DNA from: Sphaerobacter thermophilus DSM 20745
GTDB taxonomy: Bacteria; Chloroflexota; Chloroflexia; Thermomicrobiales; Thermomicrobiaceae
Reading direction: 5' to 3'
Assembly: GCF_000024985.1 (NCBI RefSeq)
Contig: NC_013523.1
Coordinates: 2,046,001 to 2,110,000 of the forward strand
Length of the DNA: 64,000 bases
Shown one piece after another: positions 6,375 to 57,172 of this stretch (position 1 is the first letter of the stretch; every line of letters starts with the position of its first letter). The notes under the pieces are model-generated. The model was not told the origin of the DNA and searched no databases. It was given only the letters and a program-made list of their open reading frames with translations. A program made the position numbers and the translations under genes.

Positions 6375-6378
6375 GGGC

Positions 6379-6477
6379 GTATTGCGTATTACGTCCTTGA
6401 TCGCATCGCGTCGTCCTCGATCAGCCCCGTCCACAACTCCGCTCTCCCAAGGTTGGGAGAGGGGTCGGGGTGAGGGT
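6379..6477 (+). repeat. Dispersed CTCTCCC-hairpin repeat, copy 1
   Basis: Between two convergent genes. CTCTCCCA (6442-6449) pairs with TGGGAGAG (6454-6461), followed by GGGTCGGGGTGAGGG to 6476. About 50 bp before the hairpin is GTATTGCGTATT (6379-6390), which also occurs next to copy 4 (55932-55943) in the same relative orientation. The hairpin could double as a bidirectional terminator. Confidence 0.75.
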
Positions 6478-54749: not shown

Positions 54750-55835
54750 ATGACGATACTGACCAGCAAACTTGACCAACTGGAAGCGCGCTTCGAGGAA
54801 CTGGATCGGCTGCTCGCCGATCCGGAGGTCGTGACCAACCCGGAGAAGCTCGCCGAGTACGGGCGAGAGCGGGCCGACCTGGAAGAGGTCGTCACCACCT
54901 ACCGCACGCGCAAGCGCGTCGACGCGGAGATCGCGGAGGCAGAATCGCTGCTCCGCAGCGGCGACCCCGACCTGGAGGAGCTGGCCGAGGAGGAGCTGAA
55001 GCGACTCCGGGAAGAGCGGGAGCGGCTGGACAACGAGATCCGGATGTTGCTGGTGCCCAAGGATCCCAACGACGAGAAGAACGTCATCGTCGAGATCCGG
55101 GCCGGCACCGGCGGCGAGGAGGCGGCGCTGTTCGCCGCCGACCTGTTCCGCATGTACTCCCAGTACGCCGAGAAGCGCGGCTGGAAGATCGACGTGATGT
55201 CGGCCAACGAGACCGGCATCGGTGGCTTCAAGGAGATCATCTTCGAGGTTCGCGGCCGCGGCGCGTACAGCGAACTGAAGTACGAGTCGGGCGTCCACCG
55301 GGTGCAGCGCGTGCCGGTCACCGAGTCGGGTGGGCGCATCCACACCTCCACCGCCACTGTCGCGGTGCTGCCGGAGGCCGAGGAGGTCGATATCCAGATC
55401 AACGAGGAGGATCTGCGCATCGACGTCTTCCGCTCCACCGGGCACGGCGGCCAGAGCGTGAACACCACCGACTCGGCGGTGCGCATCACCCACCTGCCGA
55501 CCGGACTGGTCGTGACCTGCCAGGACGAGAAGTCGCAGATCAAGAACCGGGCGAAGGCAATGGCGGTGCTCCGCGCACGGCTGTACGACCTGGAGCAGCG
55601 GCGACTGCACGAGGAGCGCTCGGGCATGCGGCGCTCGCAGGTAGGTACCGGCGAGCGGGCGGAGAAGATCCGCACGTATAACTTCCCGCAGGACCGTGTG
55701 ACCGACCACCGACTGAAGCTCAGCCTGGGCAACCTGCCCGAGATCCTCAACGGCGAGATCGACACCTTCATCCGCGAACTTCGCGCCGCCGACCAGGCCG
55801 AGCGCCTGAAGGCCGCCGGGCTGAACGGGGCGTAG
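54750..55835 (+). CDS. prfA: Peptide chain release factor 1
   Basis: 361 residues. Codon-recognition region and catalytic GGQ in [43 protein letters not shown] is characteristic. Terminates translation at UAA/UAG. ATG 54750 with GGAGGA upstream; an open frame continues upstream within the previous gene but starts in a different context. Followed by prmC, which methylates this GGQ glutamine. Confidence 0.98.
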
Positions 55836-55853
55836 GACGTGGGGCGTGGTTCG

Positions 55854-55977
55854 TCATGCGTCATACGTCCTCCGTCATGCGTCGTGCGTCCCCGTCACCC
55901 CCACCCCCTCTCCCACCAGGGGAGAGGGGAAAATACGCAATACCCGTGACGCATGACGCGTGACGTATGACGCATGA
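55854..55977. repeat. Nested inverted-repeat element containing CTCTCCC-hairpin copy 4
   Basis: Outer arms TCATGCGTCATACGTC (55854-55869) and its exact reverse complement (55962-55977); inner arms CGTCATGCGTC (55874-55884) and GACGCATGACG (55948-55958); core hairpin CCCCTCTCCC (55905-55914)/GGGAGAGGGG (55920-55929). The core belongs to the dispersed CTCTCCC family, here on the minus strand. The right outer arm includes the prmC start codon. Confidence 0.85.
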
Positions 55978-56821
55978 TCCTCCCACCCTCCGCCAACTCC
56001 TCCATGACGGCCGCCAGCAGCTCGAGCAGGCGGGCGACGAGACGGCTCGGCTCGACGCCGAGGTGCTGTTGCGGCACCTGCTCTCCATCGACCGCGCGAC
56101 GCTCTACGCGCGACTACCGGACCCCGCGCCACCCGATACCGTCGAGCGGTACCGCGACCTGATCGCGCGGCGCGCCGCCGGGGAGCCGGTGGCCTACATC
56201 ACCGGCCATCGGGAGTTCATGGGGCTCGACTTCCTGGTCGACCGGCGCGTGCTCATCCCCCGGCCGGAGACGGAGTATCTGGTCGAGTGGGCCCTCGCGT
56301 GGTTACGCGAACGGGGCGGGGATCGCCTCGTGGTCGACGTGGGGACCGGCAGCGGCGCGATCGCCGTCAGCCTTGCCGCCCACGCGGACGACCCGGCCTT
56401 GCGCGTGGTCGGCAGCGATCGCTCCCTCGACGCCCTGCGTGTCGCCGCCATCAACCGTGACCGGCTCGCGCCGGGCCGTGTGGCACTGGTGGCGGGGGAT
56501 CTCCTCTCCTGGTGCCGTCCCGGCATCGACCTGGTGCTCGCCAACCTCCCCTATCTGCGCCCCGACCAGGCCCACGCCGGGATCGCCTGGGAGCCGGCGG
56601 TGGCACTCTACGCCGGGGAGACCGGGTTCGGGCTCTACGAGCAACTCCTGCCGCAGGTGGCCCAGCGTCTGCGCCCCCGTGGCGCCGTGGGCTGCGAGAT
56701 CGACCCCAGCCAGCGCGCCATTGCCCTCGCCACCGCCCGCTCACACTTCCCCACCGCCCGTATCACCGTCCGCCCCGACCTCGCCGGCCTCGACCGTTAC
56801 CTCATCATCGAGACGGATTGA
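55967..56821 (+). CDS. prmC: Release factor glutamine N5-methyltransferase
   Basis: 284 residues. N-terminal helical domain (TLRQLLHDGRQQLEQAG), GREFMGLDFLVDRRVLIPRPETE and SAM motif VVDVGTGSGAIAVSLA. The catalytic NPPY motif reads NLPY (VLANLPYLRP). Methylates the GGQ glutamine of RF1/RF2. ATG 55967 is the first possible in-frame start after a stop at 55961. It lies inside a repeat arm and has no Shine-Dalgarno, so translation initiation may be weak or leaderless. Confidence 0.92.
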   Translation: MTHDPPTLRQLLHDGRQQLEQAGDETARLDAEVLLRHLLSIDRATLYARLPDPAPPDTVERYRDLIARRAAGEPVAYITGHREFMGLDFLVDRRVLIPRPETEYLVEWALAWLRERGGDRLVVDVGTGSGAIAVSLAAHADDPALRVVGSDRSLDALRVAAINRDRLAPGRVALVAGDLLSWCRPGIDLVLANLPYLRPDQAHAGIAWEPAVALYAGETGFGLYEQLLPQVAQRLRPRGAVGCEIDPSQRAIALATARSHFPTARITVRPDLAGLDRYLIIETD

Positions 56822-57172
56822 TGCCGCGGCCTGGTCATGGCCCGGCGCCAGAGCTGCCGCTTTGGCATGGCGCGGAATCGGGAAGCTACACGTGGCCCAT
56901 CCAAGGTACCGTCGGTAGTGAGTGGATCCCCGCCGTGGAATGTGCCCGGCGGCCCTAGCCCCGGACACGTGCCGAGCGTCGGGGTACTCTCGCCACCCAC
57001 CGCGGACACGGGTCGCCAGCCCGCGCGCTCCTTGCGGATGAAGCACGACAACCCCGCACCGCGCACTACCCAGTACGGAGTACGCAACACGCACCGCGCC
57101 ACACACAACACGATGAGCGCACCCCGGTGACCCGTGGGTGCGCGGAATCGACGAGTTGGTTTAGACTGACTG
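56822..57172. other. Intergenic region between convergent prmC and rpmB
   Basis: 351 bp. It contains a low-complexity tract with GTAC/CGCAACACGCA-type motifs (57060-57105) resembling the flanks of the dispersed repeats, and a GCGCACCC (57117-57124)/GGGTGCGC (57136-57143) hairpin that may end rpmB. No gene recognised. Confidence 0.5.

Follow-up and report, generated by a model that had tools for sequence, protein, structure and literature searches.

A Sphaerobacter repeat of head-to-head heptad arrays, probably represented at the prfA-prmC junction of Sphaerobacter thermophilus

The inverted-repeat feature at the start of prmC in Sphaerobacter thermophilus is probably one copy of a Sphaerobacter-specific intergenic repeat, in which two arrays of xxACGxx heptads face each other head-to-head around a spacer, usually a G/C-rich triplex-type hairpin. 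As part of the same reading, we regard slippage and exchange among copies as the probable origin of the arrays, the palindrome as a by-product, and the spacer as prone to inversion. The feature was studied in a window of 64,000 nucleotides (C1:2046001-2110000) of a genome of 3,993,764 bp in two contigs.

Heptad arrays at the prfA-prmC junction

The repeat sits at the junction between prfA (release factor 1), whose ORF ends at 55835, and prmC (release factor glutamine methyltransferase, 55967-56821, plus strand). A 16-bp perfect inverted repeat pairs 55854-55869 with 55962-55977, a 12-bp repeat pairs 55852-55863 with 55947-55958, and an 11-bp repeat pairs 55873-55883 with 55948-55958. Among 2000 dinucleotide-shuffled versions of the 145-bp junction region the longest inverted repeat was 12 bp, reached once, and a 16-bp repeat was attained in 1 of 875 segments of 145 bp across the 64 kb. 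The inverted repeats and the CTCTCCC hairpin at prmC are far above the chance level. An earlier note on this DNA had described 16-bp and 11-bp inverted repeats nested around the hairpin. These are present, but there is no unique nested palindrome: Tandem Repeats Finder resolves the "arms" into period-7 arrays at 55852-55890 and 55947-55977.

The heptad consensus is TGACGYA, always of the form xxACGxx, and the left and right arrays stand head-to-head around a core. On the left (55831-55893), CGT recurs in phase every 7 bp, up to 55889, in nine units (CGTAGGA, CGTGGGG, CGTGGTT, CGTCATG, CGTCATA, CGTCCTC, CGTCATG, CGTCGTG and CGTCCCC), which are TGACG-type heptads when read from the minus strand. 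The TAG stop codon of prfA (55833-55835, plus strand) falls within CGTAGGA, the first in-phase unit. The right array (55933-55977, plus strand) consists of ATACGCA, ATACCCG, TGACGCA, TGACGCG, TGACGTA, TGACGCA and a final TGA; between 55935 and 55970 its ACG recurs at 7-bp intervals, one unit being degenerate. The core (55890-55929) has the form of an intrastrand triplex-type motif, reading CCCCTCTCCCC-TGGT-GGGAGAGGGGG-T-GGGGGTGACGGGG on the minus strand, and a perfect 10-bp hairpin with a 5-nt loop pairs 55905-55914 (CCCCTCTCCC) with 55920-55929 (GGGAGAGGGG). An Rfam scan at gathering thresholds gave zero matches across the window. Elsewhere in the window we observed a single-sided ACG-phase stretch, CAGTACGGAGTACGCAACACGCACCGCG, downstream of prmC (57050-57103), short CGT-type heptads, GCGTATTGCGTATTACGTCC, at 6378-6400, and three triplex-type hairpins at 6442, 17129 and 20719.

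A large family of intergenic heptad pairs

The 30-base right array matches 45 places in the genome with at most three mismatches, the heptad triplet pattern 354, and the CTCTCCC hairpin occurs in 116 copies; the corresponding controls gave 0 (mirrored), 7 and 0 (mirrored). This bears out the proposal that the repeat is dispersed. Within 257 kb of contiguous sequence there are eight inward-facing array pairs and no outward-facing ones, which extrapolates to ~120 per genome, and we place the number of such loci in the 3.99-Mb genome at about 100-150. The genome totals are pattern counts, and the loci studied come from sampled stretches: forty loci were read, and most comparisons use 41 sampled loci picked for strong heptad matches.

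Members of the family commonly run from (CGTCATG)n through CCCTCACCCCC-GGCCCCTCTC-loop-GAGAGGGGAG and further heptads (ACACGGA, ATACGCA, CTACGCA) to (TGACGCA)n. TGACGCA and TGACGTA are the most frequent words around ACG, and the asymmetric core occurs in both orientations among the loci read. With genes predicted by a simple codon-usage script, 25 of the 41 sampled elements lie between tandem genes, 15 between convergent genes and 1 between divergent genes, as compared to 132 tandem, 34 convergent and 33 divergent among all neighboring pairs. Divergent pairs are therefore rarer (Fisher test, p=0.014) and convergent pairs commoner (p=0.009) at the elements than among all gene pairs. Sampled elements mostly lie within a few bp of the adjoining stop or start codon; one resides between atpD and atpC, as assigned from sequence. 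At another locus (L007, ~1709-1731), the array GGAGGACGCATG / TGACGGAGGACGCATG appears to be the source of both the Shine-Dalgarno sequence and the start codon of the next gene.

Degenerate 7-bp tandem arrays at more than 100 intergenic sites have been described for the heptads GGGAATC in Xanthomonas and GGGGAYT in Nostoc (Rehm et al. 2015, PMC4692102). The Xanthomonas heptads often occur in pairs that converge as inverted repeats (70 in Xcc and 75 in Xac), lie near stop codons, avoid divergent promoters and are found at the same place in a related species in 83% of cases (PMC4692102). The Sphaerobacter arrays resemble them in having at least two degenerate tandem 7-bp units around a fixed core, at many intergenic sites, in inverted pairs, near stop codons and with divergent gene pairs avoided (1/41). 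They differ in that their word, xxACGxx, is not G-rich and thus gives no G-quadruplex, that the pair encloses a triplex motif, that the spacer is invertible between species, and that an array gives a start codon. As the unit TGACGCA has no G tract for a G-quadruplex, the heptads are the same kind of repeat as those of Rehm et al. but a different family. The TAACTGA heptads of the Beggiatoaceae, which lie a few nt 5' of start codons with few canonical ribosome-binding sites, and for which a translational role has been suggested (MacGregor 2015, PMC4679880), are likewise 7-bp repeats at start codons. They are nearly all direct and upstream of the start, whereas the Sphaerobacter arrays form inverted pairs, use another word and overlap the start. 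The Sphaerobacter heptads add a large family to this class from the Chloroflexota, unusual in that its head-to-head arrays enclose a triplex motif and in the inversion of spacers between species.

The core as a triplex motif

The intrastrand triplex motif TM occurs in many bacterial genomes and is tied to local instability (Holder et al. 2015, PMC4666352). Like TM, the Sphaerobacter core has the three blocks CCCTCTCCC, GGGAGAGGG and GGGTGAGGG. A search for these blocks gave few matches at tight spacing and 66 exact copies of the full motif in the genome at relaxed spacing, with 0 in the controls. Going by its letters, the prmC core matches the motif with one mismatch, in the third block (GGGGGTGACGGGG against GGGTGAGGG). 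Unlike TM as described (PMC4666352), the G blocks are usually longer in Sphaerobacter and the motif is framed by heptad arrays. The family ties heptad arrays to the intrastrand triplex motif; until now these had been treated as separate classes of repeat.

Distribution across genomes

We counted 354 heptad triplets in the genome of the window (G000), 348 and 234 in two further Sphaerobacter genomes (G001 and G002), and 0-2 in other genera of the same family. Some other families of the order also have abundant triplets, though with different variable letters, and the generic ACG heptad pattern is patchy over the phylum. The sister species hold arrays at the same sites as S. thermophilus. As far as these genomes indicate, the arrays are a genus-level trait of Sphaerobacter; the CTCTCCC hairpin is spread more widely than the heptads. 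An exact 26-base heptad sequence was found among GTDB contigs in one Sphaerobacter MAG only, in a scan that possibly did not include the window's own genome records. Five distant Chloroflexota genomes (G022, G093, G202, G225 and G275) carry many 7-bp arrays of other words (GCAGTNN or ACGTTCA, for example), which are missing from most of their relatives and patchy phylum-wide. The papers searched gave no earlier account of heptads in Sphaerobacter or the Chloroflexota.

The start codon of prmC

The prmC ATG at 55967 lies inside the right arm of the 16-bp repeat (55962-55977) and is the sole in-frame ATG, GTG or TTG near the conserved N-terminus, with an in-frame stop just before it. There is no alternative ATG, GTG or TTG near the conserved TLR motif in S. 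thermophilus, and the 25 nt 5' of the ATG contain no Shine-Dalgarno-like word. The earlier note was correct on both points, that the right arm supplies the prmC start and that a Shine-Dalgarno sequence is missing. The full ~130-bp element occurs at the prfA-prmC junction in G000 and G001, at the identical place and with the same core orientation, while G002 has the right array only. In all three genomes the prmC ATG is within a heptad and preceded by an in-frame heptad TGA, and the first codons (ATG ACG CAT in G000 and G001, ATG ACG CCT in G002) derive from the array. Comparison of the sequences points to the heptad ATG as the one start that prmC can use in each of the three Sphaerobacter species. 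In outgroups of the same family, a gap of mostly 3-20 nt (33 nt at the longest) separates the prfA stop from the prmC start, as in TGA-GCG-ATG.

We propose that the arrays originated on the stem lineage of Sphaerobacter, grew and turned over through slippage and exchange among copies, and forced apart the once-tight prfA-prmC junction. Each TGACGCA-type heptad brings a TGA and an ATG, and since its length of 7 does not divide by 3, stops and starts come up in all frames along an array. A neighboring ORF may in this way have taken up a heptad ATG, and the old prmC start would have been lost. The earlier suggestion that a spreading repeat replaced the native start agrees with the dispersal of the repeat and with the heptad start in three Sphaerobacter species as against tight junctions in outgroup genera that have essentially no heptads; recent mobility is not supported. 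If a repeat took over this start in all three species, prmC, a core translation gene, would offer a concrete test of repeat co-option.

The palindrome and control of prmC

The arrays could exert translational control. In this proposal, their long stem in the prfA-prmC mRNA hides the prmC start and keeps PrmC low until it is opened by ribosomes, helicases or heat; or else the stem loops out the insert, drawing the prfA stop near the prmC start so that coupling is kept. The predicted RNA fold of 55821-56000 is indeed strong (minimum free energy -95 kcal/mol, z = -7.3), the predicted unpaired probability of the start codon is <1% at 55 C in G000, the start has no Shine-Dalgarno sequence, and the outgroups suggest prfA-prmC coupling. 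The arms, however, are no better matched within an element than between elements: complementarity averages 18.0 within elements and 18.6 in permuted pairs (p=0.84). Element-specific matching, whether from selected structure or from quasipalindrome correction, was rejected on this result. The longest perfect inverted repeats range from 7 to 20 bp over the sampled family, and the 16 bp at prmC is ordinary for it. The start is also partly open in the predicted fold of G001, the right-array-only region of G002 has a different predicted fold, and the element occurs at many unrelated genes and at convergent pairs without any start.

Arms that match no better within than between elements indicate that the cruciform arises incidentally from words common to both arrays, and the case for control of prmC is the weaker for it. 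A cruciform selected to control prmC is not supported, and we consider translational control by the stem unlikely. RNA or cruciform control of prmC in S. thermophilus is possible but unsupported. In the preferred reading, that of arrays grown by slippage and exchange, the long palindrome would follow from both arrays drawing on the same words.

Conservation of sites and mobility

A dispersed, palindromic, intergenic element might also be a mobile REP/BIME- or MITE-like unit that a transposase acts on in trans, and the head-to-head arrays do form terminal inverted repeats as in a MITE. A candidate enzyme is the Y1_Tnp (RAYT-like) gene, present as a single copy in G000 (C1:86896-87234, L101) and in G001. 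In G000 this gene sits between two longer genes and has an unrelated family of inverted repeat (AGCCCCTTCAGTGGGCTTCGCCTTGTCAGCCCGGG) on its flanks, and its 3.3-kb locus contains neither heptads nor the CTCTCCC hairpin. As the locus is flanked by another repeat family, we rejected Y1_Tnp as the mobilizer of the heptad elements. Of the comparable sites checked, almost all in G001 and ~19 of 22 in G002 retain heptads, indicating little recent movement, and no target duplication is visible at the sole clean empty site, atpD-atpC in G002. These comparisons of sister genomes give no evidence of recent transposition, contrary to the mobility envisaged in the earlier note. We consider a mobile unit quite unlikely. 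The GTAG and CGTC families of REP/RAYT systems are tagged 20-40-bp stem-loops (PMC3733652); the Sphaerobacter elements resemble them as dispersed intergenic palindromes containing the word CGTC, and differ in having tandem heptads with no tagged stem-loop and a local RAYT-like gene associated with another repeat. By this comparison they do not belong to the REP/RAYT elements.

Spacer inversions between sister species

For 27 loci we traced the flanks in G001 and G002 and then read the orthologous stretches. Only ~20 kb of synteny was alignable for contig C1 of G002, so single-locus orthologues were used. Between G000 and G001 the spacer is inverted at 5 of 21 loci (L002, L020, L022, L034 and L040) and in the same orientation at 16, several of the latter judged visually on their core sequence. 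At L022 and L034 (orthologues L130 and L109 in G001), unique spacers of 86-90 bp align only as the reverse complement between collinear flanks. The sister genome was assembled from short metagenomic reads, so that a single inversion could be an assembly error; the flanks of L022 and L034 are coherent. The inversion breakpoints lie within the arrays.

Loci that differ between sister species with breakpoints in the arrays could be active inversion switches, the arrays serving a dedicated recombinase as its recombination sites, with spacers that flip during growth and give phase variation. We found the spacers in both orientations between species only (5/21 loci). As a control, we compared triplex motifs without heptads in G000 and G001. 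Most single motifs keep their orientation, but a heptad-free motif pair at L036 (~441-571) and one further heptad-free motif site, C1:2171885, are inverted. Flips at heptad-free motif pairs show that inversion is not heptad-specific, which speaks against a heptad-specific enzyme. The target genes are unremarkable (prmC, atpD-atpC), the spacers are mostly hairpins, and the prmC spacer has one orientation common to G000 and G001. We consider such switches very unlikely. In these sequences, inversion seems to go with inverted repeats in general, and the palindromic DNA may make spacers inversion-prone through inverted-repeat recombination or template switching, with no dedicated recombinase.

We found no evidence of regulation by the heptad elements. 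It is highly improbable, as a more far-reaching idea, that the more than 100 head-to-head arrays act as inversion-prone cassettes with stops and starts in all frames, the cassette at prmC providing an essential start, and spacer flipping or array length tuning the methyltransferase supply.

Plastid spacers between short inverted repeats flip among related species, for which a hairpin and recombination have been blamed (Kim and Lee 2005, as cited in PMC12928735). The Sphaerobacter spacers behave alike in flipping between inverted repeats among related species; they differ from the plastid inversions in being bacterial, in occurring at many loci with one word list, and in spanning up to ~130 bp. 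The inverted loci provide comparable cases of small repeat-bounded inversions in a bacterium.
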